Below, piece by piece: positions 2,705-33,225 of a stretch of DNA of 33,319 nucleotides. The stretch is from IMG/VR virus record IMGVR_UViG_3300046467_001092, positions 1-33,319 of that record, one strand, 5' to 3'. The translations under genes were made by a program, and so were the position numbers. The notes under the pieces are model-generated. The model was not told the DNA's origin, ran no database searches, and was given only the letters and a program-made list of their open reading frames with translations. This stretch comes from a virus. Each line of letters opens with the position of its first letter. Within the stretch, counting starts at the first letter, position 1.

Positions 2705-4072
2705 CTACACGCGAACTGGACCCACGGGTGTATAACTTCCTGGTGGTGGATCTAAGCGGGTCCCAGCAAGGTCTGTAATGTGGTGTAAGTCCAAGCCATG
2801 CTCTATTCCTATTAAGTCTGGGCGGTGCCGGTACGGTGTGGTTGCAAGGCGATCGGTACCAGTGTGTGGACCTTTAGCTCCATAGTTTCCGTCTCCGCGT
2901 ACCACGCCATCACCCCGTGATGTTTGGAGCAACATCTCAAGCTGCTCAGGGGTATCATAGGACATACTGGAGCTAGCGTAAGGGTGGGGGCCGCCTGTGA
3001 TATCGCCAGGACCCTGCACGCCCTCCGAAGCGGAGCCAGCGTAAGGGTAGGGGTTGCCTGGTCCAGCACGCAGCTCGGCATTAATCACTGACGGAACTTC
3101 CTCAGACAGAGGCGGCTGCGGGCTCCTCCCCCCTTTCCCCTTGCCTGGACTGCCGTAAGAACCGTGTGCAATTGGCTCACGACTGATTCCTCCGCCTAAA
3201 GAACTGTGCGCCAATGGCGGCATATTCTCCTCACCTTTAGTTCCATAGTTTCCGTCTCCGCGTACCACGCCATCATCCCGTGATGTCGCAAGCCACGATA
3301 GAGCTGGGTCAGGCGCGGATGTTTTTTGCCGTGTCGGGTTTCCGGGCTGGCTTATCATTGGTCTACGGTATGGTGGTATCGTAGATTCTCTCGCCGGAAC
3401 CGGGTCCAGAATAACCCGATCTGGTGGATCTAAAATATCCCTCATCCCCGAAGGAATCCCATAGCTAAAACGATCCGGCGTATAATTCGTTTGTCCGTAA
3501 TTCCAAGGCATTGACGGCTGGGTATATGACGGTCCCGGCATTCGTCCTGGCGACCATCCCCCGTGGCCGGGATAGCCCGGTATACCCGGAAGTCTAGGTG
3601 GTTGAGGCCGTCCTTTGCCCGGTCCTCCGCCATAGCCTCCGCCCCATGGAGAAGGCTGTGGCTGCCCCCATCCTCCGCCATAGCCTCCGCCCCATGGCGA
3701 TGGTTGTGGCCGAAACCCGCCGCCATAGCCGCCGCCATAGCCTCCGCCATAGCCTCCGCCATAGCCTCCGCCATAGCCTCCGCCCCATGGAGAAGGCTGT
3801 GGCTGGAACCCGCTGCCATAGCCGCCGCCACCCCCAAAACCACGCCCCCATGGCGATGGTTGTGGCCGAAACCCGCCACCAAAAGCGGATCGGTCAACAC
3901 CGCCGCCATAGAAGTTCCCGCCCTGCCAGGGCGTCCGAGGCATAATGGCCGGCCGCATCATGCCGGGACCAAGCCCGGGGGGGCCAAACCGTCCACCGCG
4001 ACCCATGATGCCGCCACGGATACCCTGCAAACCGCTACGAGCCTGATCTAACTCTCTGTTTCTAAATGCCAC
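2705..4072 (-). CDS. Gly/Tyr/Pro-rich repetitive protein, GTG start
   Basis: This 455-residue protein has no recognised domain. The N-terminal half is extremely Gly-rich: blocks of FRPQPSPWG alternate with GYGGGYGGG runs (about residues 75-155), like silk- or adhesive-type low-complexity proteins. The C-terminal half has duplicated TSRDDGVVRGDGNYG / TSRGDGVVRGDGNYG segments and a YGSPGKG motif shared with the downstream gene. GTG is chosen as start because it overlaps the lysozyme stop (TAGTG) and no better ATG is near. There is no signal peptide. Other frames over the repeats are also open, but this frame has the co-directional context and the phage-like stop/start overlap. A structural or surface-sticking role is plausible but unproven. 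Confidence 0.7.
   Translation of the reverse strand: MAFRNRELDQARSGLQGIRGGIMGRGGRFGPPGLGPGMMRPAIMPRTPWQGGNFYGGGVDRSAFGGGFRPQPSPWGRGFGGGGGYGSGFQPQPSPWGGGYGGGYGGGYGGGYGGGYGGGFRPQPSPWGGGYGGGWGQPQPSPWGGGYGGGPGKGRPQPPRLPGIPGYPGHGGWSPGRMPGPSYTQPSMPWNYGQTNYTPDRFSYGIPSGMRDILDPPDRVILDPVPARESTIPPYRRPMISQPGNPTRQKTSAPDPALSWLATSRDDGVVRGDGNYGTKGEENMPPLAHSSLGGGISREPIAHGSYGSPGKGKGGRSPQPPLSEEVPSVINAELRAGPGNPYPYAGSASEGVQGPGDITGGPHPYASSSMSYDTPEQLEMLLQTSRGDGVVRGDGNYGAKGPHTGTDRLATTPYRHRPDLIGIEHGLDLHHITDLAGTRLDPPPGSYTPVGPVRV
2776..2812 (-). repeat. 37-bp exact repeat, copy inside the Gly-rich gene
   Basis: This is identical to 17417-17453. Here it lies inside the coding frame of the Gly/Tyr/Pro-rich protein, read in another frame. 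It still carries the ribosome site and ATG (at 2799) of the other copy and would encode MAWTYTTLQTLLGPA before a stop. Confidence 0.9.
3723..3782 (-). repeat. 12-bp tandem repeat (GYGG codons), five units
   Basis: Five tandem copies of ccatagcctccg are present, the first with one mismatch. They encode GYGG units in the Gly-rich protein. A unit of 12 bp keeps the frame if copies are gained or lost. Confidence 0.85.
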
Positions 4073-4530
4073 TAGCCCGGGTACTCCCCTGTTCGGATCA
4101 TTTGCGCCAACTCCGTTGCTCTGTTGCCGACCTGCCGTGCCCAGAGACTATCCATGAACTGTTCGCCCGCCTCTGCCCAGCTCCCTGTACTCATGGCAGC
4201 GAGAGCCTTCTTAAACTTCCTCAATCTTGTCTGCCCTAAGTTGAAACTGATATCGACCATAGCATCCTTGCGTACATCATCTAACCCCGAAAACCAGGAG
4301 TATTCATCACGCAACTCTTGTGCAACCCGGGCAATGTCATTTTTCAGCAAATAGTCGACCTCGTCTTCGGTAAGTCCCAGCCCCCGAGGGGCTCCGCGGT
4401 CAAGCGGTGTATAGCTGCGGCCGGGATCAATATTCCTGCCAACGCCTATTGTTAAAAAATCCTCACTGCACTTGTAAGCGTGGGTCTCCACGCCCTCGTG
4501 CCGGCGTAACATCTCAATCAACTTGCTCAT
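4072..4530 (-). CDS. Phage lysozyme (GH24, T4-lysozyme-like endolysin)
   Basis: This 152-residue endolysin should cut the glycan strands of peptidoglycan at lysis. The N-terminus MSKLIEMLRRHEG matches the T4 lysozyme start, with Glu12 as the catalytic acid and TIGVG following. The aligned catalytic triad is Glu12-Cys21-Thr27; the Asp of T4 lysozyme is replaced by Cys, a variant also common in phage lysozymes. The C-terminal part has DISFNLGQTRLRKFKKAL and RR/NRATELAQM features typical of the family. The ATG at 4530 is preferred over an upstream in-frame start because of the good ribosome site AGGAAGAAG and the family's usual length (T4: 164). There is no signal peptide, so release would need a holin. 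The gene overlaps the lipoprotein gene by 17 bases. Confidence 0.93.
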   Translation of the reverse strand: MSKLIEMLRRHEGVETHAYKCSEDFLTIGVGRNIDPGRSYTPLDRGAPRGLGLTEDEVDYLLKNDIARVAQELRDEYSWFSGLDDVRKDAMVDISFNLGQTRLRKFKKALAAMSTGSWAEAGEQFMDSLWARQVGNRATELAQMIRTGEYPG

Positions 4531-4903
4531 CTTCTTCCTGCCTGGCTTTATCGGTGTCTCGGTAATACCCGATGATCGAAAGCACTTGCTGAATGTATCT
4601 CTGAATCTGCGCCATATTGTTGCTGAGATTCTCATAGCCTTTCGTCGTCAGCGAATACCACGCATTCACAGGCGCTTCACCTGCCTTTAAGTCCTCAATG
4701 TACTCTTCCATGGTGTCTGGCGTAAGGATCTTCCACTCCACTGGTACCCCACTTACCGCCATCGGTAACGGCGGGTGATACATCGGAGCAGGCTTCTCAA
4801 TGGTTACCACCTCCACGGGCCGTACTTCCGGTGGGGTGAAGCGAGTGCCTCCCATTAGGGAGCAGCCGCTAAGTAGGACCAGCAGCAGTATCGTCTTCTT
4901 CAT
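4514..4903 (-). CDS. Small lipoprotein, probable outer-membrane spanin
   Basis: This 129-residue protein has a short lipoprotein signal, MKKTILLLVLLSGC, with a lipobox LLSGC, so it should be anchored in the outer membrane through Cys14. The mature part is Pro-rich at first (VEVVTIEKPAPMYHPPLP), as in many o-spanins, then carries a helical YENLSNNMAQIQRYIQQVL segment that ends in an acidic tail. The gene overlaps both the membrane-anchored coiled-coil protein before it and the lysozyme after it, the usual arrangement of a spanin pair beside an endolysin. ATG 4903 is used rather than the preceding TTG. The spanin role is inferred from layout and topology; similar lipoproteins occur in marine phages. 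Confidence 0.75.
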   Translation of the reverse strand: MKKTILLLVLLSGCSLMGGTRFTPPEVRPVEVVTIEKPAPMYHPPLPMAVSGVPVEWKILTPDTMEEYIEDLKAGEAPVNAWYSLTTKGYENLSNNMAQIQRYIQQVLSIIGYYRDTDKARQEEDEQVD

Positions 4904-5306
4904 CAAACTGATCCGGGTCCGTTAAATCTTTCAGTTCCTGAAACGCCCGCGCAGTGCCACGGTTCACCAGCTTTTCCACCAGACCGGGCTTGCGTAACGA
5001 CAGCATGTCCAAATCGTGCCGGGCAAACTTATTACGCAAATCCTCTACTTTCTCGTTGGCCTGATTGTTCGCCACGGTTAAGCCCTGAATGCGCTCTTGC
5101 GACGCCTTCTGCTCGGCCAAAGCCTTTTGAAGCTGCTCATTCTGCGTGGCTATGGCGTTCTCTAAGAGCTGCTGATTATCCATTGCCTGTTGCAACTGCG
5201 TTGCCATGGCTTGTTTCTCTGCTTCACTCTTATCGTAGTAGAGCTTAAAGCCACCAGCCATAGCGACCAGCACGATGCTTAACACAATGGATAACTTAAA
5301 TCCCAT
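4869..5306 (-). CDS. Membrane-anchored coiled-coil protein, probable inner-membrane spanin
   Basis: This 145-residue protein has one N-terminal membrane segment (residues 3-22, KLSIVLSIVLVAMAGGFKLY) followed by a long coiled coil rich in Q, E, K and A (about 25-90), then KFARHDLDMLSLRKPGL and an acidic end. The topology, with inner-membrane anchor and periplasmic coiled coil, is that of an i-spanin (Rz type). Start 5306 has the ribosome site AAGGA. It overlaps the lipoprotein gene by 35 bases, as Rz/Rz1 pairs often do. The HDLDMLSLRKPGL-type motif is recalled from T4-like marine phage proteins. It should join with the lipoprotein to fuse the two membranes at the end of lysis; this is inference. 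Confidence 0.75.
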   Translation of the reverse strand: MGFKLSIVLSIVLVAMAGGFKLYYDKSEAEKQAMATQLQQAMDNQQLLENAIATQNEQLQKALAEQKASQERIQGLTVANNQANEKVEDLRNKFARHDLDMLSLRKPGLVEKLVNRGTARAFQELKDLTDPDQFDEEDDTAAGPT

Positions 5307-7110
5307 TTGCCATCCTTAACGTAAATACCCTCACCGGAACCGCCTTCCCCTTGAGGGCCATCGGTTCCAACTCTTCCAGTTCATGACGGGAAGACCGTGC
5401 TGTCACCTCACCAATCAAAATATCGCGCTTGGCCTCCTTGGTCGCGCTCTCTAATCGAGCCGCCACATTCACCGCATCCCCGATGCAGGTGTAATCAAAG
5501 CGGCTGTCACTGCCCATGTTGCCGATCACGGCATCGCCGGTATTTACCCCGACACCAATCGCCACTTCTGGCAATCCTTCCTTCTTCATCTCATGACGCA
5601 ACCCTTCCATCCGTCGCTGGATCTCAATGGCGCAATCAATGGCCGCATTCTCATGATCATCCTGATCCAGGGGCGCATTGAAGACACCCATCATGGCGTC
5701 CCCGATAAACTTGTCCACCATGCCGCCAGCGTCCTTAACGCAATCTGCCTGAATGGTCAGCGCCCTATTCATGACCTCAACCACTGCAGGCGGCTCCAGA
5801 GCCTCGGAGAGGCTGGTGAAGCCTCTGACATCAGTAAACAGGTATGTTGCCCTGCGTCTGTCTCCACCCAGCCTGAGCAGCTCTGGCTGCGTCTGCAGAC
5901 GTTTCACCTGGCGTGGGTCCAGATAATGCTCGAATTGCTTCTTGATCTGTTGCCGCAGGACATACTCCCGATAGAACTGATTGAACAAACAATGCGCAAA
6001 CGCAATCAGGCTCGCCAGCACCGGGTAACTGGCATCCACCAGACGCGCCTCGGTGAAGGCGTAATACGACCCGCCGATGATCCCGCCGATGAAAATGATA
6101 AATGAGGGAAGCACGAAGCTAATAGGCAGTTTAGCCAGCAACGCAACGGTCAGAAGTAGAAGGGAGAGAACAACTATTTCCAACAGATTTACGTTGCTGG
6201 GCCGAACCAAGCCATCGTCATTTATCAATGCACTTAGCAGTGTAGCTAGTATGATATGTGCGTCTTTTAGGCCCACCGGCGTTGGGACCAACGGGGAAAC
6301 TCCTTCGGCGGTTACGCCGATTATGACCCACTTGCCAGCCACGACAGACAGATCCCCCGTTGCCTCCACTTTCTGGAAATCCTTATTCCAGCGCAACCAG
6401 ATGCGTCCATTGCCGTCAGTTGAGAAAGGCTCAAACGGAGGTATGCGTACCGCCGCGACGCCAGACTCGTCCATCTTTATCTGATACGACGGTTCCCCTG
6501 TCGCTACCCGTACCATTTCCAAAGGAAAGGAGGGGTATATCTTTCCGCCTACTGAAACGGCGAGCGGGAGCCGTCGTAAAACTCCATCAATCTCCGGGGC
6601 TGAACTCAGCATGCCGGCCCCGTCCGCGGCCTCTTCTAATGCAGGCAAATTTCGCGTTACGCCCGGGTAATTAAAAAGATAATCCTGTGCGTTGCCGCCC
6701 ATCACCGCCGTACCGACATGCGGCGCAGCGCCTTCAATGCCACGCGACGAAGCCGTTTGCCCTAAGACCACCGCAGGATCATCCAGTAATGCCTGCACGA
6801 ATGCCGCGTCGCCCCCGAAGCGATCCGGCTCGGGAAACATTATCGCCAGCCCTATCACCCCGGCCCCTGCCGCCCTTAGATCATGTATTAACTGAGCAAT
6901 ATACTCTCTAGGCCAAGGCCACTGGCCCCGGTCGCGCAAGCTCTGCTCGCCAATATCAATGAGGATGATGTCTTCAACTTGCTGCGCTTCGTCCAAACGC
7001 TGCAGCCAGTCAAACCCCTTGAGACGGATAACCTCAATCGGGTAGGGATCAAGCGCCCGCAGACCGACCAATAACAGGACGGTGACCACGATCGCCCTCC
7101 AAGAAAACAT
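5296..7110 (-). CDS. CHASE2-domain membrane adenylate cyclase (class III)
   Basis: This 604-residue sensor-type cyclase would make cAMP from ATP inside the host. Order: membrane segment 5-18; periplasmic CHASE2 domain about 20-300, with the typical RDRGQWPWPREYIAQL and VIGLAIMFPEPD stretches; three membrane segments at about 307-326, 331-350 and 359-378; then a class III catalytic domain at about 415-600. Metal-binding Asp427 (FTDVRGFT) and Asp471 (DKFIGDAMMGVF), purine-selecting Lys467 and Thr541 (FDYTCIGD), and transition-state Asn548 and Arg552 (VNVAARLE) are all present, so it looks active and ATP-specific. Its ATG overlaps the curlin gene stop (TGATG). CHASE2 cyclases often sit beside FecR-domain genes in bacteria, which suggests the whole block was taken from a host. 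Such a gene is very unusual in a phage. Confidence 0.95.
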   Translation of the reverse strand: MFSWRAIVVTVLLLVGLRALDPYPIEVIRLKGFDWLQRLDEAQQVEDIILIDIGEQSLRDRGQWPWPREYIAQLIHDLRAAGAGVIGLAIMFPEPDRFGGDAAFVQALLDDPAVVLGQTASSRGIEGAAPHVGTAVMGGNAQDYLFNYPGVTRNLPALEEAADGAGMLSSAPEIDGVLRRLPLAVSVGGKIYPSFPLEMVRVATGEPSYQIKMDESGVAAVRIPPFEPFSTDGNGRIWLRWNKDFQKVEATGDLSVVAGKWVIIGVTAEGVSPLVPTPVGLKDAHIILATLLSALINDDGLVRPSNVNLLEIVVLSLLLLTVALLAKLPISFVLPSFIIFIGGIIGGSYYAFTEARLVDASYPVLASLIAFAHCLFNQFYREYVLRQQIKKQFEHYLDPRQVKRLQTQPELLRLGGDRRRATYLFTDVRGFTSLSEALEPPAVVEVMNRALTIQADCVKDAGGMVDKFIGDAMMGVFNAPLDQDDHENAAIDCAIEIQRRMEGLRHEMKKEGLPEVAIGVGVNTGDAVIGNMGSDSRFDYTCIGDAVNVAARLESATKEAKRDILIGEVTARSSRHELEELEPMALKGKAVPVRVFTLRMANGI

Positions 7111-7895
7111 CAATCCGCCTGGGTAATCGTGACCGTCTTGTTACAACTGCTGACACAATCCAGCACCACCGCGTATGCCTTCGCGCTGACGCCGCTCTGC
7201 GTAGCGTTCACTGTGTAGTTACCCTGCTCTACCCGGATGTTCCCAACGTGCGCCCCGTTCCCGCTCTGCGTTAGGTTAACCGTTGAGTTATCAGACGGGT
7301 TATTTCTGAACTCTATGTCCCCATCCTTATTTCCGCTACCTGACTGCGTGATCGTTGCGTCATTGTTATTGCAGTTGTTGCAGGACCGAATATAGGCGTT
7401 ATGGTTGCCGCTACCACTTTGGGTCGAAGTCCAAGTGCTGTCATCACCAAAAGCGTAGAACTTAGCGTAGTGGTTGCCTGTCCCTGATTGCGTAATGGTA
7501 TAGACGTTGTCATCACCGCTCATATAAAGCTCACCGGACATGTCATCACCATCCTGGGTGATGGTCATTTCGTTGTTGTCCTCGTCAGCGTCTATGTAGC
7601 CTGTGGAGTCATTGCCAGTCTGAGTGATGGTGTACTCGTTTCCAGTATGGAATGTATATTGTGAGTACGCTTTAGCCAGGTTGCCTGTACCGTCCTGGTC
7701 TATGTCTATCGTCGCGCTGCTACAAGTATGCGTGGCATAGGTTCCGCTGCTCAGACCGCACCACACGCGAGCCGTGTTACCCGATCCAATTTGGTCGATA
7801 TAGATGCTGGTGCCGCTGCCCTTGGTGTCAATATCCACGGAGTTGTCCGCCGCAAAAACGGGCAGGCTAAGGAGACTGATTAATATAAATCGCAT
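7110..7895 (-). CDS. Curlin-repeat secreted protein (amyloid subunit-like), second copy
   Basis: This 261-residue protein has a Sec signal peptide (MRFILISLLSLPVFA, cut before ADNS) and nine to ten curlin-like repeats of the form (I/T)xQxGxxN, for example IDQIGSGN, IDQDGTGN, ITQSGTGN, ITQSGSGN and LTQSGNG. It ends DCVSSCNKTVTITQAD, with two Cys near the C-terminus and four in all in the Cys/Asn-rich stretches. Curlin repeats stack into a beta-helical amyloid in CsgA/CsgB. ATG 7895 is preferred to the in-frame GTG because GGAGG lies eight bases before it. The gene overlaps the FecR gene by 29 bases and the cyclase start by one. With CsgG and CsgF upstream, it is the likely cargo of the pore. 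Whether it is the major or nucleating subunit cannot be told. Confidence 0.88.
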   Translation of the reverse strand: MRFILISLLSLPVFAADNSVDIDTKGSGTSIYIDQIGSGNTARVWCGLSSGTYATHTCSSATIDIDQDGTGNLAKAYSQYTFHTGNEYTITQTGNDSTGYIDADEDNNEMTITQDGDDMSGELYMSGDDNVYTITQSGTGNHYAKFYAFGDDSTWTSTQSGSGNHNAYIRSCNNCNNNDATITQSGSGNKDGDIEFRNNPSDNSTVNLTQSGNGAHVGNIRVEQGNYTVNATQSGVSAKAYAVVLDCVSSCNKTVTITQAD

Positions 7896-8997
7896 TCTCC
7901 CCACCTCCGTTGATCGTGATATCCAGCAACTTGCCGGCCGTCAAAACTGAAATGTTGTATGCGCTGTTCTTGTCCAGCTCAAGATCAAAGGTGTTCTCGA
8001 CGCTTCTGAAGATGGTCAGTACCTCTCCCTCGACGAACGTATAGGTCTGATTCTGCTGATCGAAACCGGGGAGGATTCCCTCAATCTTAACCCCGGCAAT
8101 CTCAGCACCTCTGGCGTCATCTTTGGTTGCCGACACTTCGATGATGTCTAACAGGTCAGTCAGAAAATCAACATTAAGAAGGTCTATGTCCAATCGGCCA
8201 ATTTCATCAAGCTCGTTCTCATCAAGCTCGTTTTCATCCAGTTCAGCTTCCTCAAGCAAGTCCACATCAAGAATATTTGAGACTGTACCGGCCTGCTCCT
8301 CAACCGCCTTCTCAATCTCATCCGGGGGGCTCACGATCAGCAGGTTGTCGATAAACCCCAGGGTCAAATTGTCCAGTACCACCGGGGCTGTGGGCGCTGT
8401 CTCTGCCATCGACACCATCGTCGCCTGAAAGGCTTCGGTCAGCACCACCTGTCCGGCCAGGCTGTTCACGGTAATCTGTCCGCTGGCATTGCCCATCGCA
8501 TCTGGCAGCAAGATCACCAGGCTTCTACCGATCTCATCGACCGTCATCGTAAAATCCGTACCGCGGATACCGATAACCGCCGTTGGGGTGGCAACGGTGA
8601 TATTGGATTTGTCGATCTTGCCAAGTATGCCGGTCAGGAACCGCGCAGTACCAGAGGCCATTCGGATGGCGAGTTTGCCCTTGCTGGGATTAGGGTCAAA
8701 CACATATTCATCGATAATGATCTTGCTATGCTCGGTGAGCCGCAACATGGAGTCATCTAGGAAAGTAATCGCGATACGACCGTTCCCGGTACGCACATCA
8801 TCGTAAGCTGCAATACCTAGATTTAATTCGGCTAAGAGCGCAGCCGCTCCTTGGCGCACGACCTCGCCGTTCCCTCTCAGCTCAGAGATAGCGCCTACGC
8901 CCTCGCTGACACTTTTCGCATTGGACGCGATGGAAACCGATGAAACCGATTCAGCCGCTAAAAACAGCAGCAGAGTGGCTAACAGCCACTTGAGCAT
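7867..8997 (-). CDS. FecR-domain secreted protein
   Basis: This 376-residue protein has an N-terminal signal peptide (MLKWLLATLLLFLAAESVSS) and a FecR domain at about residues 38-170: VRTGNGRIAITFLDDSMLRL, the SGTARFLTG segment and TPTAVIGIRGTDF are the classic signatures. A Leu/Asp/Glu repeat (ELDENELDENELDEIGRLD) follows at about 248-270. The last residues, ITINGGGENAIYINQ, resemble a single curlin repeat, so it may dock on the fibre. It lacks the cytoplasmic anti-sigma part of true FecR and is probably a periplasmic or surface protein. It lies between the two curlin genes and overlaps both. Signal-peptide FecR proteins next to CHASE2 cyclases are known in bacteria; their role is poorly understood. 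Confidence 0.9.
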   Translation of the reverse strand: MLKWLLATLLLFLAAESVSSVSIASNAKSVSEGVGAISELRGNGEVVRQGAAALLAELNLGIAAYDDVRTGNGRIAITFLDDSMLRLTEHSKIIIDEYVFDPNPSKGKLAIRMASGTARFLTGILGKIDKSNITVATPTAVIGIRGTDFTMTVDEIGRSLVILLPDAMGNASGQITVNSLAGQVVLTEAFQATMVSMAETAPTAPVVLDNLTLGFIDNLLIVSPPDEIEKAVEEQAGTVSNILDVDLLEEAELDENELDENELDEIGRLDIDLLNVDFLTDLLDIIEVSATKDDARGAEIAGVKIEGILPGFDQQNQTYTFVEGEVLTIFRSVENTFDLELDKNSAYNISVLTAGKLLDITINGGGENAIYINQSP

Positions 8998-9695
8998 TGG
9001 TCAATGTCGATGGTCCCGCCCGTTGTGATACCAATAATATTCACGATTCCAGCCGTAGAGCCCGTGCTACTTGTCTGGTCTATGTCGATGTTGTTCGTAT
9101 TACCAGTGACGTCCGCCGTGATGGAATGGTTGGCATTTCCGGTCTGCCTCGTGTCAATATCGTTGCTGTCGCCGTCTACGTCCCAATTATTAGTTGCGCC
9201 GACCACTTCTGTAGTGATATTCAGATCATTGCTGGTGCCAGTGATAACGATATCGGTGTTACCGCTGGTAGCTGTCGATGCTGCACCCTGAGTGAACGTA
9301 AGAGCGTTGGAATCTCCGGTTGCAGCGAAATCAAAGTCACTGCCAGCAACATCTCCTGTCGCGCCAACTGCGAGCGTTTGTGTGTTGGAGTCACCTGTAG
9401 AAGACAACGTGAATGAAGTGCTATTGCCTTGCGCGACCGTAGCGGCAATCACATTGCTGTCACCGATCTGGTCTATATCAACGGTCATGCTGGTTCCAGT
9501 TAAAGACACCCTGGCCGCTGTAGTACCCACGATATTGCTAGCACCGATCTGGTCGATGTTCATCGTGAGGGCGGTAGAGCCGCCGCTCTGAGTGATATAT
9601 ATCGAGTTGTTGGCAGAATAAGCCGAAGGCATATACGCCAAAGAGCAGAAAAATACGAGGTAAACGAGAGAGTATTTAATTACTTGGAATTGCAT
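8979..9695 (-). CDS. Curlin-repeat secreted protein (amyloid subunit-like), first copy
   Basis: This 238-residue protein has a Sec signal peptide (MQFQVIKYSLVYLVFFCSLA..., cleaved near AYSANN) and Asn/Asp/Thr-rich curlin-like repeats: IYITQSGGS, MNIDQIGASN, VDIDQIGDSN, LSSTGDSN, IDIDQTSS and IDIDQCSSG. The repeats are more degenerate than in the second copy, with several losing the Gln. It ends in DQCSSGC, a Cys pair that also recalls the Cys in the second curlin protein. ATG 9695 is chosen over an upstream in-frame ATG because AGGAGGAGG precedes it at good spacing and it opens directly into the signal peptide. It overlaps the CsgG gene end by 20 bases. It is the first cargo gene after the pore gene. 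Confidence 0.87.
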   Translation of the reverse strand: MQFQVIKYSLVYLVFFCSLAYMPSAYSANNSIYITQSGGSTALTMNIDQIGASNIVGTTAARVSLTGTSMTVDIDQIGDSNVIAATVAQGNSTSFTLSSTGDSNTQTLAVGATGDVAGSDFDFAATGDSNALTFTQGAASTATSGNTDIVITGTSNDLNITTEVVGATNNWDVDGDSNDIDTRQTGNANHSITADVTGNTNNIDIDQTSSTGSTAGIVNIIGITTGGTIDIDQCSSGC

Positions 9696-10539
9696 GAGAT
9701 GCCTCCTCCTGTGGCTTGTAGTCCCACAGATCATCCTCAATGCCTTGGATGATTACTGCATAAACCGCCGCCTCAATTGCACTCCGCGTAGCATAAGTCG
9801 CGGTTTCGTTCTTGGCTATCCCGGCCTCTAGCTCCACCAGTTCAGTGCCGTTTTCTGTAAAAATAAACGTGTCAAAGCCAGTAGCTGCCGAATAAATTCT
9901 TTTGCTCGTAATCACGTTCAACAGCACCTGGCCGGTCTGGACCAGTATAACTCTCAGAGCCACCGTGACCTCGTCAATCCGATACTGCGTATTCAAACCA
10001 ATCCCGAGATACCTCGCGCCTATGCCTGCAGACCGGGTATTCGCATCGTAGCCGATGATGCCGCCGGTCAGGATTAAGCCTGAAAACAATAGCGGCGCTA
10101 GCTTATTGGAGCCCTCGCCATCGTAGCTATTTCGAGTTGAAATAATGAGTTGCCGCTCCCTGGTGAGAGCGTCCAAATTGCCCCGCTCCGCCACTAAAAA
10201 CCACTTCCCACCCCCGGCTGCCAGAAGCGCATCAATGAGAAACGAGTCTGCGCCTTGGGTGACCGCGGTGGAGAACAACGCCATGTTGTCAGCAGTAGCG
10301 CGTTGACCAGTCAAATCTAAGAAAGAATAAACCGATACCACGGCCTTCTGCCTGGGCGCTGGCAGATTGACTAAATCTCGGAGTGTTGGCCGTTCAATCC
10401 GTGGCCCGCGAGGACAATCATTAACCTCGAAACCTTTCGCATTGATATAGTCCTGACTCAGACTGGCGCATTCACGCGCTGAATTGACGCTCGCGCATCC
10501 AGCAATCAGGACTAGAAAACATAAACCTAAATACCGCAT
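9676..10539 (-). CDS. csgG: CsgG-like outer-membrane lipoprotein, curli secretion pore
   Basis: This 287-residue protein has a lipobox signal (MRYLGLCFLVLIAGC, Cys15). CsgG forms a nine-fold outer-membrane channel that exports unfolded curlin subunits. The CsgG domain is clear along its length: AVVSVYSFLDLTGQ, LFSTAVTQGADSFLIDAL, KWFLVAERGNLDAL, GGIIGYDANTRSAGIGARYLGIG and NTQYRIDEVTVALRVI all match E. coli CsgG in order. In the constriction loop the Phe (E. coli F56, in FSTAV) is kept while the neighbouring Asn and Tyr are replaced. Length is close to E. coli CsgG (277). It overlaps csgF by 13 bases and the first curlin gene by 20, so synthesis of pore and cargo is probably coupled. It is placed inside the late phage operon. 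Confidence 0.96.
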   Translation of the reverse strand: MRYLGLCFLVLIAGCASVNSARECASLSQDYINAKGFEVNDCPRGPRIERPTLRDLVNLPAPRQKAVVSVYSFLDLTGQRATADNMALFSTAVTQGADSFLIDALLAAGGGKWFLVAERGNLDALTRERQLIISTRNSYDGEGSNKLAPLLFSGLILTGGIIGYDANTRSAGIGARYLGIGLNTQYRIDEVTVALRVILVQTGQVLLNVITSKRIYSAATGFDTFIFTENGTELVELEAGIAKNETATYATRSAIEAAVYAVIIQGIEDDLWDYKPQEEASHAIPSN

Positions 10540-10988
10540 TCCGCTGAACAGATGCCGAAAGTGCCAATTGGGATTCTGATTTCGGTAATGGCTCCATCGA
10601 CATCAGTGACTGTAAGGACGATCTCAGTTCCCGTATTCACAAACGCAATCTGATTGCCTTCCAGGTCTATGACGCCCCCTGTCCCGCCTCCCTCGCTGTT
10701 GAATAGGCTTTCTGCCAGGTCACGGGATAGCTGAGAAAAGATGCGTGATTCAAGATTCCGTATGAATTTAGCGAGCGTTGTATTTTCTGCCTCGCGCTCC
10801 AGCTCATTCAACCGCGCCTCTACTTCGTCTTGAATGGCGATCTTACGACTGCGCTCTTGCTCGTCAATCGTCAGATAATGAGCCGACTGCCCCGCACCGC
10901 TGAAGCTAGGGCTTTTGAATTGAAAGCTCAAACCGTCTGCCCACGCAGACGAAGCAAGTAACAAGCTAATCGACATCAATAGTTTCAT
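10527..10988 (-). CDS. csgF: CsgF-like curli assembly factor
   Basis: This 153-residue protein has a Sec signal peptide (MKLLMSISLLLASSAWA) and then DGLSFQFKSPSFSGAG, matching the mature N-terminus of CsgF (TMTFQFRNPNFGG in E. coli), the part that plugs into the CsgG channel. The body has a helical region ending in FIRNLESRIFSQL, then a beta-rich end (TEIVLTVTDVDGAITEIRIPIGTFG) like the CsgF C-terminal domain. Two Cys close the protein (CSAECGI). CsgF normally couples secreted subunits to nucleation at the cell surface. AGGTGAG precedes the start. It is the first gene of the curli block and overlaps the preceding holin-like gene by 23 bases. No CsgE, CsgC or CsgD homologue is visible in the window. 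Confidence 0.92.
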   Translation of the reverse strand: MKLLMSISLLLASSAWADGLSFQFKSPSFSGAGQSAHYLTIDEQERSRKIAIQDEVEARLNELEREAENTTLAKFIRNLESRIFSQLSRDLAESLFNSEGGGTGGVIDLEGNQIAFVNTGTEIVLTVTDVDGAITEIRIPIGTFGICSAECGI

Positions 10989-19576: not shown

Positions 19577-20134
19577 TTATTCAAATGGGGTAGCGAGCGT
19601 GCCGTCACCATGAAGGAATGCCTCACAGTGCCAAACCGCCGCACTGGTTGCTACCAGACGAATAATCCCACCGACCAGCCAGCCTTGTCCTGCCGATCCC
19701 AGGTCAATGGTATCGTCGTTAGAGGCGTCTGGGATGAAGGTATTCATGTCAGTTGCAGTTGCCGGATCAAACAAATGGGCAAAACCAGAGAATAGGTCGC
19801 TGGCGTTGTCCGTATTGATCTGGCCTGCGCCAGTGAAGGTGGTGCCGACGATGAAGGTGTAGTTAATACCCGCAGCCGCCGTTGGTAGCGTTACCACGAT
19901 ACCCGCCGCCCTGTTCAGGGTATAAACCGTACCTGAGTCGGTTGACTCAACGCTCTTGGTAGCAGACGTAATGCTGCTGACGTTGGCATAAGCGGACAGA
20001 TATCCCGTCGTTGTGATATTGCCGCTGGAGTCGACGTCCAGGTTGGTAGTAATCGCGCCCGTAGTCGAGTTCTTGCTGATCTGCTCGAACCCGCCTTCCG
20101 AACGGACTGGGCCATTGAATGTTGTGTTAGCCAT
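19577..20134 (-). CDS. Probable head fibre or decoration protein
   Basis: This 185-residue protein starts MANTTFNGPVRSEGGFEQIS, then KNSTTGAITTNLDVDSSGN and a beta-rich domain (AAGIVVTLPTAAAGINYTFIV). The N-terminal FNGPVRS(E/K)GGF motif is found in structural proteins following the capsid gene in marine phages. It is the first gene after the capsid terminator and has the ribosome site ACAGGAG. Its leader carries a parS-type site, so it may have its own promoter. Confidence 0.78.
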   Translation of the reverse strand: MANTTFNGPVRSEGGFEQISKNSTTGAITTNLDVDSSGNITTTGYLSAYANVSSITSATKSVESTDSGTVYTLNRAAGIVVTLPTAAAGINYTFIVGTTFTGAGQINTDNASDLFSGFAHLFDPATATDMNTFIPDASNDDTIDLGSAGQGWLVGGIIRLVATSAAVWHCEAFLHGDGTLATPFE

Positions 20135-20166
20135 TAAAATCTCCTGTCGTGGCTAGTGTCTGCCTA

Positions 20167-20182
20167 TGTTTCACGTGAAACA
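20167..20182. promoter_or_regulatory. Exact canonical parS site (ParB-binding palindrome)
   Basis: The 16-mer TGTTTCACGTGAAACA is a perfect palindrome and matches the chromosomal parS consensus bound by ParB/Spo0J. The expected number of exact matches in 33 kb of random sequence is about 1 in 100,000. It lies in the 99-bp gap between the capsid terminator and the next gene. A second short dyad, CTGACAGTCAG, lies just beside it at 20183-20193. No parA or parB gene is seen in the window. Confidence 0.85.
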
Positions 20183-20194
20183 CTGACAGTCAGG

Positions 20195-20226
20195 ATAAAA
20201 AAGAAGGGGGCGGTTGCCCGCCCCCC
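20195..20226 (-). terminator. Rho-independent terminator after the major capsid gene
   Basis: On the minus strand, an 8-bp G/C stem (GGGGGCGG / CCGCCCCC, loop of four) starts eight bases after the capsid stop and is followed by CTTCTTTTTT-type U-rich sequence. It is the strongest terminator seen in the window. It should limit read-through from the head genes and so raise the ratio of capsid protein to tail proteins. Confidence 0.88.
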
Positions 20227-29403: not shown

Positions 29404-29730
29404 ATGTTCGATTTACTCTTCTCAACAACCGGCATACACACCGTACCGGCACCGCTCGATGCTCTGACCGAAGAGCTTGCCACTCTGCAAGCCAGCCTCA
29501 ATGCTGGCGGTGACGAGCAGGACGCGGCAAGACTCTGCTTCGACCACAACCTAGTCGAGGTCGCAACCCGCGCTCTTCGGCACGTCAACGACGGTATCAG
29601 TGACGAGCTTTTTCGCACCTCTTGGTACTGGCGTGGAGAGAATGGCGAAATCAGCGCGGAGGAAGCCCTTCAAGGCGAAGTCATCTATAACCGGGCCATA
29701 ACCCGCCACGTCACCGACCCGCTCCAATAA
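29404..29730 (+). CDS. Hypothetical early phage protein
   Basis: This 108-residue protein starts MFDLLFSTTGIHTVPAPLDA, is mostly helical and acidic, and has LATLQASLNAGGDEQDAARL and EVIYNRAITRHVTD stretches. No family is recognised. AAGGA lies before the start. It is the first gene of the rightward operon, and its stop codon is directly followed by the hammerhead ribozyme, so its mRNA probably ends there after self-cleavage. Confidence 0.72.
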   Translation: MFDLLFSTTGIHTVPAPLDALTEELATLQASLNAGGDEQDAARLCFDHNLVEVATRALRHVNDGISDELFRTSWYWRGENGEISAEEALQGEVIYNRAITRHVTDPLQ

Positions 29731-29787
29731 TCCTACTGATGAGATCCACGGGGGTGGATCGAAACGCCGAGAGGTCGGCGTCTGGGA
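29731..29787 (+). ncRNA. Type I hammerhead ribozyme
   Basis: All core bases are present. CTGATGA is at 29736-29742; stem II GATCCAC / GTGGATC (7 bp, GGGG loop) at 29743-29760; GAA at 29761-29763; stem III from A29764 to T29781 (7 bp, GAGG loop); cleavage base C29782; stem I TCCTA (29731-29735) pairs with TGGGA (29783-29787) with one G-T pair. Stem I is open to the flanks, so it is type I. Cleavage is expected between 29782 and 29783. A 3-bp extension (AAT 29726-29728 with ATT 29793-29795) across an internal loop could help folding. It begins at the base after the stop codon of the upstream gene and lies in the leader of the ArdC-like gene. Confidence 0.92.
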
Positions 29788-29817
29788 ACCCAATTAACCA
29801 AGGACCATTGGATCATC

Positions 29818-30663
29818 ATGAAAAAAGACGTAAAACAAATAGTTACGGACCAAATCATCGAGCTGATTGAAGAGCACGGTGCGAACTGGACCCAGCCTTT
29901 CGCGAGCCTATGCGGCACACCACGTAATGCCCTCACCGGCAATAAGTACCGTGGACTCAACGCCTTCTGGCTTGGGCTTAAAGGGTTCTCCTTTGTGGGA
30001 ACCTACAAACAGTGGCAGGAGCTGGGCGCTCAGGTTCGCAAGGGCGAAAAGGGCACTTCCATCACCGTTCCTTTGCCGATCAAGAACAAGGAAACGGGTG
30101 AGCAAAAGGGTCTCTTCTTCAGGGCCGCGACCGTGTTCGATTCATCGCAGGTCGATGGCTGGGCGGCGCCGGTAGTGGAGACCGTGGACACAACGACGAA
30201 GCTCGCGCTAGTCGATGAGTACATTGCCAACACTGGGGCTGACATCCGTCATCACCCCGTGGGCGGTGCGTTCTACCGCATTAGCGAGGACTTCATTAAC
30301 CTGCCGTTCCGCCACCAGTTCAGTGCCACTGAGACCAGCAGCGCAACCGAGACCTACTACAGCACAAAGCTCCATGAGCTGACGCACTGGACAGGTCATA
30401 AGTCGCGCTGTGATCGCCTTGATCTCAAGAACCGCAAGGGCTACGCCTTCGAAGAGCTGGTTGCTGAGATTGGCGCAAGCATCCTGTGCGTTGAACTCGG
30501 GGTATCCCCCGTAGTGCGTGAGGATCACGCGCAGTACATCGCGAGCTGGCTGCAATCGCTGGGCAATGACAAGTCCTACGTCTTCGACGCCGCGAGTGCG
30601 GCTCAAAAGGCGGTGGACTTCCTCGATGGAACCCAAGCGCAAGAAGAGAGGAGGGTAGCATAG
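29818..30663 (+). CDS. ardC: ArdC-type antirestriction protein with zinc metalloprotease motif
   Basis: This 281-residue protein has the N-terminal ssDNA-binding ArdC domain (NWTQPFASLCGTPRNALTGN, YRGLNAFWL, KQWQELGAQVRKGEKGT, FRAATVFDSSQVDGW) and a C-terminal zinc-metallopeptidase domain with HELTH (186-190) and FEELVAEIGASIL after it, the likely third ligand. ArdC proteins protect incoming DNA from host restriction. The early position fits that role. AAGGA at 29800-29804 lies in the loop of a small hairpin CCAAT / ATTGG (29790-29811), so translation may be affected by the folding of the leader that remains after ribozyme cleavage. Confidence 0.93.
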   Translation: MKKDVKQIVTDQIIELIEEHGANWTQPFASLCGTPRNALTGNKYRGLNAFWLGLKGFSFVGTYKQWQELGAQVRKGEKGTSITVPLPIKNKETGEQKGLFFRAATVFDSSQVDGWAAPVVETVDTTTKLALVDEYIANTGADIRHHPVGGAFYRISEDFINLPFRHQFSATETSSATETYYSTKLHELTHWTGHKSRCDRLDLKNRKGYAFEELVAEIGASILCVELGVSPVVREDHAQYIASWLQSLGNDKSYVFDAASAAQKAVDFLDGTQAQEERRVA

Positions 30664-30735
30664 GGATTAGATCCCCGTGCCTGTTCACCAGAGCAGGCAT
30701 CTGGATGCAATCCCGCATCAACAAACAGGAAACAC
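30661..30735 (+). ncRNA. Structured intergenic element, copy 1
   Basis: This element follows the ardC stop. Hairpin 1 at 30677-30700 (GTGCCTGTTC / GAGCAGGCAT, 10 bp, ACCA loop); hairpin 2 at 30704-30719 (GATGC / GCATC, loop AATCCC); then AACAGGAAACA with the ribosome site. GGGATT at 30663-30668 can pair with either ATCCC at 30671-30675 or the loop of hairpin 2, which may give a pseudoknot or a switch. It has no U-run and so is not a plain terminator. Confidence 0.8.
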
Positions 30736-30739
30736 GAGC

Positions 30740-31066
30740 ATGCAAACGATTATTTTTAACAGAAAACCTCTACGCGTCAGCGCAACCGATCACAGATTCC
30801 TTCTGATTCTCCGCAGTCAGGATTTCGCGGCGCGGCGCAGCGATTTCGAAGAAGGCCGGGGGAATTACCGTAGCTCGATCCTTCCGCCAACCGACTCGCT
30901 GGCACAACTTGGCGCGACCGAAAAGTACGCCAGCGCCCCGCTGTCCACGCGCGAGGCGCGATTTTTTGAGGCACATCCGCGCTGCAAGACGGGGATCTTC
31001 GGCAATCCGCGCAGAGTCAACGCGATTCTCAACAAGCTCCAGGGCCGAGCCGGTTCGCGCCTTTGA
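30740..31066 (+). CDS. Hypothetical early phage protein
   Basis: This 108-residue basic protein starts MQTIIFNRKPLRVSATDHRF and contains many Arg (AARRSDFEEGRGNYRSS, GNPRRVNAILNKLQGRAG). No family is recognised. The ATG at 30740 has AGGAA eleven bases before it, within the tail of the structured element. A longer in-frame start would run through that element and is rejected. Confidence 0.68.
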   Translation: MQTIIFNRKPLRVSATDHRFLLILRSQDFAARRSDFEEGRGNYRSSILPPTDSLAQLGATEKYASAPLSTREARFFEAHPRCKTGIFGNPRRVNAILNKLQGRAGSRL

Positions 31067-31070
31067 CTGG

Positions 31071-31140
31071 TAGGGATTAGATCCCCGTGCCCGTTCGAGA
31101 GAGCGGGTATCTGGATGCAATCCCGCGTCGACAAACAGGA
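31071..31140 (+). ncRNA. Structured intergenic element, copy 2
   Basis: Hairpin 1 at 31087-31110 (GTGCCCGTTC / GAGCGGGTAT, GAGA loop) and hairpin 2 at 31114-31129 (GATGC / GCGTC, loop AATCCC), with the same 5' GGGATT and 3' ACAAACAGGA as copy 1. A T-A pair of copy 1 is C-G here, and other changes keep pairing through G-T. The next gene starts 32 bases further on, with its own ribosome site. Confidence 0.8.
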
Positions 31141-31172
31141 TTTGATAAACATAAATTGAACTGGAGAAAGAA

Positions 31173-31445
31173 ATGAGCAACCCATTCAGAAACGAATTGA
31201 TGCGGAACATGTACGATTCCTGTACAGATTCTGCTCGTCGCGAAATTTGGATATTGGCAGACGGTTCTCAAAAACGCGGGTCAAGTCACTCTGCCGCCTT
31301 TTGGGACGGGTACAACAATCGCCCAACTGTTTTCCACAACCCTGCCGATCCAGCATTCAGAACCACTCTGGGTTATGCCGCATATCGTGCTGGACAGGAT
31401 CGGAAAAGCTTGGAAATGACCAATGACACACCACCAAGAGGCTAG
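31173..31445 (+). CDS. Hypothetical early phage protein
   Basis: This 90-residue protein starts MSNPFRNELMRNMYDSCTDS and has polar sequence with several aromatic residues (SAAFWDGYNN, TTLGYAAYRAGQD). The AFWDGY...AYRAGxD pattern is seen in small phage and plasmid proteins of unknown role. GGAG precedes the start. Its end overlaps the next gene by 23 bases. Confidence 0.7.
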   Translation: MSNPFRNELMRNMYDSCTDSARREIWILADGSQKRGSSHSAAFWDGYNNRPTVFHNPADPAFRTTLGYAAYRAGQDRKSLEMTNDTPPRG

Positions 31446-31617
31446 CGCCCTCCATGTGCTGACGGTGATCGCGGGAGTCGTATTGCTGCTGGGTCTTCTC
31501 GGACTCACTGGCAATATGGACTATCGCGATGCAGTGCTGGCCGAGGAGCGTTACACGACGATGGTTTGCGACGGTCATTGGCCTGACTACCAACATCTAT
31601 CGCCCCAATGTGAATAG
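31423..31617 (+). CDS. Small membrane protein of unknown function
   Basis: This 64-residue protein starts MTHHQEASALHVLTVIAGVV, with one membrane span (about 10-28, HVLTVIAGVVLLLGLLGLTG), then MDYRDAVLAEERYTTMVCDG. The MDY(x)AxxxExxYxxMV motif is seen in small proteins of phages and plasmids. It overlaps the preceding gene and ends exactly where copy 3 of the structured element begins. Confidence 0.72.
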   Translation: MTHHQEASALHVLTVIAGVVLLLGLLGLTGNMDYRDAVLAEERYTTMVCDGHWPDYQHLSPQCE

Positions 31618-31680
31618 ATCTCAGCCTCATGCCCACGTGGATGGGCATTTGGGTGCGATTTTGCATCGACTAACAGGAAA
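31618..31680 (+). ncRNA. Structured intergenic element, copy 3
   Basis: This is the second sub-type of the element. Hairpin 1 at 31629-31648 (ATGCCCA / TGGGCAT, CGTGGA loop); hairpin 2 at 31652-31667 (GGTGC / GCATC, loop GATTTT); then GACTAACAGGAAACA and the start codon. 53 bases are identical to copy 4. It begins the base after the TAG stop of the upstream gene. Confidence 0.8.
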
Positions 31681-31684
31681 CACT

Positions 31685-32029
31685 ATGAGAACCGAAGAGA
31701 AACAAGCGCGACATCACGCCATGGCAACGCATGGGCGCATTGCTGGCGATGAAGGCAGAAGAGGAAAGCGAGGAGGCAAGCCGCGTCAAGCAGGGGGCCG
31801 TCGGGGGTATGATTGCAAGTTGCAACAGGCATTGGATAATCAGCAGAACCAGACGATAACGGTCACGGTCAAAAACCAGTACGGCAACGACGTGATCCAC
31901 CCCGCATGCGCGACATCACGTTTGTTTGCGCGGATCGCCGGAACCGTCACGCTGACAACGGAGACGCGATCGCTGATCAAAGAGTTGGGCTACCGGATCG
32001 AAATAGCCGCCCCCACTTACAAAATTTAA
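31685..32029 (+). CDS. Hypothetical early phage protein
   Basis: This 114-residue protein starts MRTEEKQARHHAMATHGRIA. The N-terminal part is very basic and Gly-rich (GRRGKRGGKPRQAGGRRG), which suggests nucleic acid contact. The C-terminal half (TVTVKNQYGNDVIHPACATS, RLFARIAGT, TETRSLIKELGYRIEI) resembles small phage/plasmid proteins of unknown function. The start at 31685 is set by the AGGAA in the element just before it; an in-frame upstream start would cover the element and is less likely. Confidence 0.7.
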   Translation: MRTEEKQARHHAMATHGRIAGDEGRRGKRGGKPRQAGGRRGYDCKLQQALDNQQNQTITVTVKNQYGNDVIHPACATSRLFARIAGTVTLTTETRSLIKELGYRIEIAAPTYKI

Positions 32030-32046
32030 CGAGGAATAGACCTAAG

Positions 32047-32103
32047 ATCCCAGCCTCATGCCCACGTGGATGGGCATTTGGGTGCGATTTTGCATCGACT
32101 AAC
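32047..32103 (+). ncRNA. Structured intergenic element, copy 4
   Basis: Hairpin 1 at 32058-32077 and hairpin 2 at 32081-32096. Sequence 32051-32103 is identical to 31622-31674, while the bases before and after differ, so the unit limits are clear. It precedes the ATPase gene, whose AAGGA lies just after the element. Confidence 0.8.
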
Positions 32104-32120
32104 TGACCAAGGAAATCAAC

Positions 32121-33152
32121 ATGGACCTACCAAAAGTTAATCTCGTTCAGGCGGCAGAGTTCCTGAACGCCTGGATTTCAGGCGGAAACAAAAAGCCGGT
32201 ATTTCTCTGGGGGCCGCCGGGCGTTGGGAAAAGCTCCACCTTCCACGCCCTGGCCGATTCGATCGAATATGCATTCCTAGACACGCGCCTGTCTCAGCTC
32301 GACCCGGTCGACGTAAGGGGCGTGCCTTCGGTGATCAAAGGCGTCACGACCTGGAACGTGCCGTCCTGGCTCCCCCGCGTCGAGACGCACGGCGAGCGCG
32401 GAATTTGGGTTCTCGATGAGTTCTTCTTAGGCTCGCCGGCTGTACGCAACGGGTTTTACCAAGTGCTGCAGGATCGTGCGGCTGGCGACTGGAAACTCCC
32501 GCCGAACTGGATCATTCTCGCTGCTTCTAACCGCCCAGAAGACAAGGCCGGGATCGCGGGGGGCCAGTTTGACTCGGCTCTGACTAACCGCTTTGCTGCA
32601 CACTTTGAGATCGTCCCCGACGTGGACGCCTGGGCGGAATGGGCGCTGGGTAGTGATGTCTCGCCTGAGTTAGTCGCGTTCATTCGCTTCCGGCCGGAAT
32701 TGCTGCACGAATTCCCCGAAGGCGGAATACCGAAGGGCCGAATCGCCTACTCCACTCCGCGATCGCTGGTTTCGGCTGGCGACATCATCAAGCTTGGTTG
32801 CGCGCCTCGGCTCGAACAGGCCGCGCTTGAAGGCTGCATTGGTGCTGGCGTGGCGGCTGAACTCGCCGGTTTTCTGCAGATCATCAGAACCTTGCCCGAC
32901 GTTGGGTCAATCTTGCGGCATCCCGACACGGCCGATATCCCGACAGAAACGTCGACGCTTTATGCGCTGGCGAGCCTGTTAGGAAAACGCGCCGATGCAG
33001 CGACCTTTGCTGCCGTCATCCGCTACCTTGAACGGGCATCGGAAGAGTTCGCGATTCTCGCAGTCAGTATCGCGACGAGCCGGGACGAGTCTCTCAAATT
33101 CACCGAGGCGTACATCCAATTCAAAATCAACCATAAAGACATCAATATTTGA
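32121..33152 (+). CDS. MoxR-like AAA+ ATPase
   Basis: This 343-residue ATPase has Walker A GPPGVGKS (31-38), Walker B IWVLDE (95-100), sensor Asn137 in ILAASN and an arginine-finger-type NRF (Arg157). The order and the DPVDVRGVPS and FDSALTNRF segments fit the MoxR group. Phage and bacterial MoxR ATPases often act with a VWA-domain partner in a neighbouring gene to remodel protein complexes; the next gene here is cut by the window edge, so the partner cannot be checked. It is framed by structured elements 4 and 5. Confidence 0.93.
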   Translation: MDLPKVNLVQAAEFLNAWISGGNKKPVFLWGPPGVGKSSTFHALADSIEYAFLDTRLSQLDPVDVRGVPSVIKGVTTWNVPSWLPRVETHGERGIWVLDEFFLGSPAVRNGFYQVLQDRAAGDWKLPPNWIILAASNRPEDKAGIAGGQFDSALTNRFAAHFEIVPDVDAWAEWALGSDVSPELVAFIRFRPELLHEFPEGGIPKGRIAYSTPRSLVSAGDIIKLGCAPRLEQAALEGCIGAGVAAELAGFLQIIRTLPDVGSILRHPDTADIPTETSTLYALASLLGKRADAATFAAVIRYLERASEEFAILAVSIATSRDESLKFTEAYIQFKINHKDINI

Positions 33153-33160
33153 GGAATATT

Positions 33161-33225
33161 GGGAGGGATCTATCCCCGTGCCTGTTTTTGCGAACAGGCA
33201 TCTGGATGCACCCCGCATCACAATC
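33161..33225 (+). ncRNA. Structured intergenic element, copy 5
   Basis: Hairpin 1 at 33178-33201 (GTGCCTGTTT / GAACAGGCAT, TTGC loop) and hairpin 2 at 33205-33219 (GATGC / GCATC, loop ACCCC). It keeps the copy 1 pattern with compensatory change near the loop (T-G of copy 1 becomes T-A). It follows the ATPase stop and precedes the last partial gene. Confidence 0.8.

Follow-up and report, generated by a model that had tools for sequence, protein, structure and literature searches.

A phage-restricted intercistronic RNA element shares early-operon slots with hammerhead ribozymes and may itself be a self-cleaving ribozyme

Small self-cleaving ribozymes known from nature fall into only about nine or ten classes. 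Active hammerheads flank the phage gene ardA, and a halovirus hammerhead is located 13 nucleotides (nt) upstream of an early gene, close to a mapped early transcript end (PMC3088659). The element described here is present in five copies in the early operon of IMG/VR virus record IMGVR_UViG_3300046467_001092, whose entire 33,319 bases are referred to as the window. It represents an RNA family that is absent from Rfam, has a fold supported by covariation and shares its gene slots with hammerheads, the two RNAs alternating there. Computation in this analysis established the family together with its structure, covariation, orientation and position, as well as the exchange with hammerheads. Tentatively, the five copies are best explained as members of an uncatalogued, phage-restricted family of intercistronic RNAs in polycistronic early mRNAs, whose most likely function would be that of a small self-cleaving ribozyme interchangeable with the hammerheads of these operons. 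The pistol, hatchet and twister-sister ribozymes were discovered through such co-location with known ribozymes (PMC10085705).

The element and hammerhead ribozymes occupy the same early-operon gene slots. In the window, a type I hammerhead (29731..29787, +), identified by its motif, its predicted fold and a weak Rfam match, lies 5' of an ArdC-type anti-restriction gene (29818..30663, +; Pfam ArdcN and MPTase-PolyVal, phrog_7245). Its stem I is TCCTA/TGGGA, its core is CTGATGA...GAAA and its predicted GUC cleavage site falls after 29782; the predicted fold yields stems I-III, and Rfam sees RAGATH-1-hammerhead at 24.4 bits, which is below the gathering score. This hammerhead, 0.9 kilobases (kb) upstream of the element copies in the same operon, was absent from an earlier sequence-only reading of the window. 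In the phage contig L127, the ArdC gene is 96% identical to that of the window and has the element (3103-3173) on its 5' side, in the place that the hammerhead takes in the window. The local alignment between the two restarts at 29795 in the window and 3165 in L127, 7 and 2 nt after the two RNAs, and runs on through ArdC, with no alignment upstream of the restart point. The replacement is reciprocal: the MoxR gene of L002, 44% identical to the MoxR-type AAA ATPase gene of the window (32121..33152, +; Pfam bpMoxR/AAA_5, phrog_1297), has a type II hammerhead upstream (Rfam, 47 bits) in the slot that copy 4 of the element takes in the window. A hammerhead-like type II motif and the element also occur within one operon in L104. 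Hammerhead-like motifs at ArdC phage loci (L127-L206) numbered 55, in 33 of 80 loci and all in the sense of ArdC; three control sets of about the same size had 1, 0 and 0. A subset of these 55 is confirmed at the Rfam gathering threshold. Hammerheads of all three types are found repeatedly in the early operons of ArdC phages, and many score below Rfam thresholds.

Hammerheads of types I, II and III (RF02276 and relatives) resemble the element in size, in sense orientation and in lying just 5' of the Shine-Dalgarno (SD) sequence. However, the element has neither the CUGANGA...GAAA...UH core nor the three-way junction, and its topology is different. A hammerhead variant was rejected as an identity, as the core is absent, the copies have no Rfam hammerhead match and motif scans place hammerheads elsewhere only.

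Two covariance models define the family. Model R1, built from seven sequences (the five window copies and two IMG/VR hits, L088 and L104), scores members at 60-81 bits. Model R2 scores members at 43-70 bits versus no more than 18.6 bits in 0.93 megabases (Mb) of other phage contigs, and these scores place the motif far beyond chance. The strict member set obtained from IMG/VR comprises 55 copies with 47 distinct sequences on 38 phage contigs, drawn from ArdC relatives (L127, L202), a structure-aware pattern scan (L207-L216) and two scans anchored on the 3' part. Pattern hits that lay in coding sequence or did not have the fold were excluded (L125, L126, L208, L213). In L216, two identical element copies are found within 150-base-pair (bp) direct repeats of a GGGCTGGGC-rich intergenic region (4425-4642), with a possible third, diverged copy before the next gene (about 4755-4820) that was uncertain and was also left out of the set. 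When the same pattern was run over about 85,000 bacterial and archaeal genomes, all 98 matches were chance matches and none was a real member, and a bacterial or prophage origin was rejected on this result. Searches of named phages by blastn gave chance matches only, although this is a weak test for so short a sequence, and the element is missing from the fetched regions of KPP25 and phiR18, which are relatives of L212. Taken together, these searches indicate a family that is widespread among uncultured phages, whereas the cellular genomes searched yielded no member. Among the 47 distinct members, 45 lie in sense orientation just 5' of an SD sequence and a start codon, with a median distance of 19 nt to the latter. 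Because of this placement, and because pairing is kept through G-U intermediates, it is concluded that the element acts as RNA rather than as a DNA repeat.

From its 5' end, the element consists of a strand Pa5 (4-6 nt), a 2-nt joint J1, the strand A-[U/G, rarely C]-C-N (Pb5), a 2-nt joint J2 and the hairpin P3; the 3' half consists of a 2-nt joint J2', the strand N-G-R-U-G-C, Pa3 (4-6 nt) and G-C-R-Y-C, and is followed by an unstructured leader with the SD sequence. P3 can be of any sequence and has as few as 6 bp in L207, and J2 and J2', regardless of sequence, each keep a length of 2 nt in almost all members. Conservation stops sharply 3' of GCRYC. Covariation was measured with G statistics ranked after average product correction (APC) and with shuffles, measures that make no correction for relatedness among members. 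By this ranking, the top 25 of 1128 column pairs include all six pairs of P3 and five of Pa, and Pa is paired at 88.6% of positions, whereas swapping partners between members lowers this to a mean of 65%. A conserved core and covarying helices are both present in the element.

The GRUGC strand can pair with AnCN (helix Pb) or with GCRYC (helix P2), and the two pairings are mutually exclusive. P2 is 5 bp long and fully paired in 47 of 47 members, and at positions 50-63 it is A-U in 43, G-U in 2 and G-C in 2, with further G-C members in L335, L435 and L437. The last scan, GGRTGCAATCTCGCAYC, left positions 50 and 63 free to take every A/G x C/T combination (L434 and L435 were read by eye); it found structured members with A-U, G-U and G-C, and no structured A.C member, its two A.C matches being without structure. 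A scan with a relaxed P2 descriptor found that the P2 sequence is not swapped for arbitrary pairs. In Pb, compensation is seen at 19-48 (U-G, C-G, G-C, A-U) and at 17-50, where the pair is U-A in some members, C-G in L435 and L437 and otherwise mostly G.purine; whenever it is G.purine in the strict set, base 15 is C and faces G52. Since P2 and Pb both compensate, GRUGC has two partners that exclude each other; the sequence conservation of both helices is partly set by the search patterns, whereas the compensations are not. Pa fits either state, giving a rod together with Pb or, together with P2, a pseudoknot that leaves almost none of the hairpin loop unpaired. The nearest-neighbour ensemble is a mixture (mean P(Pb) 0.60, P(P2) 0.30), and the minimum-energy folds of copies 1 and 2 are long rods (-31.7 and -32.0 kcal/mol). 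Three simpler structural models were set aside: a model with P3 and P2 only, partly kept here, misses Pa and Pb; a model with the rod only accounts for Pa, Pb and P3 but not for the compensation at 50-63; and base triples of AnCN with P2 do not fit by strand polarity.

All five copies described by the sequence-only reading were found, all on the + strand. Copy 1 (30663..30719; R1 80.7 bits, R2 67.0 bits) is made up of Pa5 at 30663-30668, Pb5 at 30671-30674, P3 at 30677-30700, N48 plus GRUGC at 30703-30708, Pa3 at 30709-30714 and GCRYC at 30715-30719. Copy 2 (31073..31129; R1 77.9 bits) has GCGUC with a G-U pair in P2, and copy 3 (31615..31667; R1 76.1 bits) is of the sub-type AGCC / GGGUGC. 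Copy 4 (32044..32096; R1 71.5 bits) is directly 5' of the MoxR-type ATPase gene, and copy 5 (33165..33219; R1 70.4 bits) is 5' of the last gene, which is cut by the end of the window. The two sub-types proposed earlier were recovered, with AUCC in copies 1, 2 and 5 and AGCC in copies 3 and 4, as was the placement between a stop codon and a gene: the copies start at or just past the stop codon and end 18-43 nt short of the start codon. The first hairpin of that reading (P3) does keep its pairing through two-sided changes. Its second hairpin (P2) is also real, but the 5' strand has another, exclusive partner in the AGAUCY / CAGCC stretch (Pb). The reading had noticed that GGGATT can pair with two places, which is correct; covariation points to the second-hairpin loop as the partner (Pa). 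ACWAACAGGA, by contrast, does not belong to the element; it lies outside the structure, is the ribosome-binding leader and is not conserved across the wider family. A wider search of phage sequences and a test of covariation, both of which the reading had proposed, yielded the 47 distinct IMG/VR phage sequences and, by the APC-corrected G statistics, strong covariation of P3 and Pa. The general claim of an unrecognised RNA element with compensatory changes thus finds support in the many additional members, in their covariation and in the lack of an Rfam match.

That lack of a match covers the window copies, for which no Rfam family was matched at gathering or permissive thresholds (E<=10), and the element copies at the other element-bearing loci searched, at gathering and permissive thresholds alike. 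Nothing like the element was described in the literature searched, which is not proof of its absence in print. Of the known classes, the pistol ribozyme (RF02679) shares with it a short hairpin with the loop paired to a distant strand, about ten conserved nucleotides and a discovery by neighbourhood logic, and a fully paired hairpin loop is a geometry known from the pistol P1 loop. However, in pistol the partner of the loop is downstream, between P2 and P3, and enclosed by P2, whereas in the element it is upstream and there is no pistol P2; the conserved bases also differ and there is no Rfam match. A permuted pistol was rejected since the element has no enclosing P2. HDV-like (hepatitis delta virus-like) ribozymes likewise have a nested pseudoknot and a hairpin between strands, but in the element the P3 hairpin comes before P2a, no P4 is found between P1b and P2b, and Rfam gives no match; the wrong strand order excludes this identity. 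H-type pseudoknot riboswitches (SAM-II/V, preQ1) also place a pseudoknot just 5' of the ribosome-binding site. In contrast to these, the element precedes unrelated genes, has a peripheral P3, leaves the SD sequence outside the structure and has no Rfam sequence match.

When two unrelated RNAs substitute for one another precisely between a given pair of genes, with no change of orientation, they most likely share a function, an argument also made in the literature (PMC10085705). Self-cleavage, one of several options in the sequence-only reading, is tentatively favoured by the position of the element, at about even odds, since the job of the hammerhead is to cut the transcript. The element would thus cut the transcript between genes, and each downstream message would then start a few nucleotides 5' of its ribosome-binding site. 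The active fold may be the one with P2 formed and its 4-6 nt loop almost wholly paired with the upstream Pa strand in a pseudoknot. The active site would comprise the AnCN strand, the fixed 2+2 internal loop and the invariant P2 core, with P3 as a peripheral arm. Either before or after cutting, GRUGC could pair with AnCN to form the long rod, as an inactive state or a folding intermediate. One candidate cut site is the 3' edge after GCRYC, because conservation ends sharply there, and another is the 5' edge of Pa. A fuller proposal is slightly less probable: the element could be a new structural class of phage-restricted self-cleaving ribozyme, in which an active pseudoknot competes with an inactive rod by exchange of the GRUGC strand, and which is freely swapped with hammerheads as an mRNA-processing module. 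The breadth of phages that carry the element suggests independence from host proteins.

Several points weigh against self-cleavage. Two exclusive helices would suit a regulatory switch or leader as well, and the searches required GRUGC/GCRYC, which makes its conservation partly ascertained. The freshwater-phage contigs with the element have no hammerheads, the motif scan giving one weak match inside L333. Additionally, RAGATH-18, another RNA found near ribozymes, proved to be a guide RNA (PMC11061315).

The strongest competitor, though an unlikely one, is a non-cleaving bistable leader, in which GRUGC toggles between Pb and P2 and regulates translation initiation or coupling to translation of the upstream gene. 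The mixed ensemble, the compensation of both helices at a single base (50 with 17 and 50 with 63) and the tight spacing to the start codon are all consistent with such a leader, as are the location of P2 at the edge of the 30S footprint and the frequent overlap of Pa with the stop codon of the upstream gene. However, it leaves the hammerheads in the same slots unexplained, the SD sequence itself is not sequestered, and the varied downstream genes (ArdC, MoxR, small open reading frames (ORFs) and others) are not suggestive of one ligand. Processing by a host endonuclease such as RNase III, with the Pa-Pb-P3 rod as substrate, would serve the purpose of the hammerhead in that slot with an enzyme that is nearly universal in hosts, and the minimum-energy rods of copies 1 and 2 are in keeping with it. 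The RNase III sites of phage T7 early mRNA are similarly intercistronic, repeated along the early operon and rod-like. They differ from the element, which has an invariant core, a fixed 2+2 loop and an exclusive second helix. RNase III would have no need for the invariant AnC...GRUGC...GCRYC core, the fixed 2+2 loop or an unpaired GCRYC 3' of the rod, and rod length varies widely, down to the short P3 of L207. This explanation is considered rather improbable.

A binding site for a phage or host RNA-binding protein, serving autoregulation or CsrA-like control, is more doubtful still. The CsrA consensus resembles GGAUG. However, GGA is not conserved in the family, which has GGGUGC, CGAUGC and UGGUGC members, and it is paired instead of looped, and a CsrA site (conserved GGA in a hairpin loop) was rejected on these grounds. 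The phages that carry the family also differ in their gene sets, and no one gene was found to accompany it throughout. A self-sufficient RNA fits better than a protein site because a core with free helices is common to such phages, and the protein-binding operator suggested by the sequence-only reading is considered unlikely for the same reason. A repeat or mobile cassette at the DNA level, with no function as RNA, is finally already disfavoured and very improbable: several copies per genome, and two identical copies in the L216 repeats, would be expected of it, but covariation that includes G-U pairs, the predominant sense orientation, divergent flanks and absence from the bacterial genomes searched would not.

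If the element cleaves, it would add a ribozyme class, and cutting between early genes would be the selected function, given that two unrelated RNAs perform it. Without cleavage, the element would still be a new bistable leader RNA and provide a direct test of what the slot needs. In either case the listed members are ready for immediate transcription and assay.

The structural genes of the window are on the - strand, and the early operon starts at 29404 on the + strand in the order small ORF, ArdC, small ORFs, MoxR-type ATPase and the cut gene. The small ORFs 3' of copies 1, 2 and 3, all on the + strand, encode 108 aa (30740..31066), 90 aa (31173..31445) and 114 aa (31685..32029), and none of them matched a family. 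A similar layout is seen in the freshwater phages with the element, L368 (304-6302) and L207 (1371-3466), which have in common an early operon with a SprT-like protease and a MoxR-type ATPase; the L368 operon also has a VWA-type protein and lies opposite a terminase-like gene (gene names by eye). In L127, a 300-nt GC-rich stretch 5' of the element (2780-3090) has apparent hairpins and no obvious gene or Rfam match. Elsewhere in the window, a Mu-gpT-DE RNA (RF03012, 51.4 bits) is present at 20132-20195 (-), just 3' of a Mu gpT-like capsid gene. The window also carries a curli (type VIII secretion) gene set at 5296-10988 on the - strand, which is very unusual cargo for a phage. It includes CsgG (Pfam 154 bits), CsgF, two curlin-repeat proteins (the second just under the Pfam cut-off), a FecR-domain protein and a CHASE2 plus nucleotide-cyclase protein, and is adjoined by phage lysozyme and tail genes.

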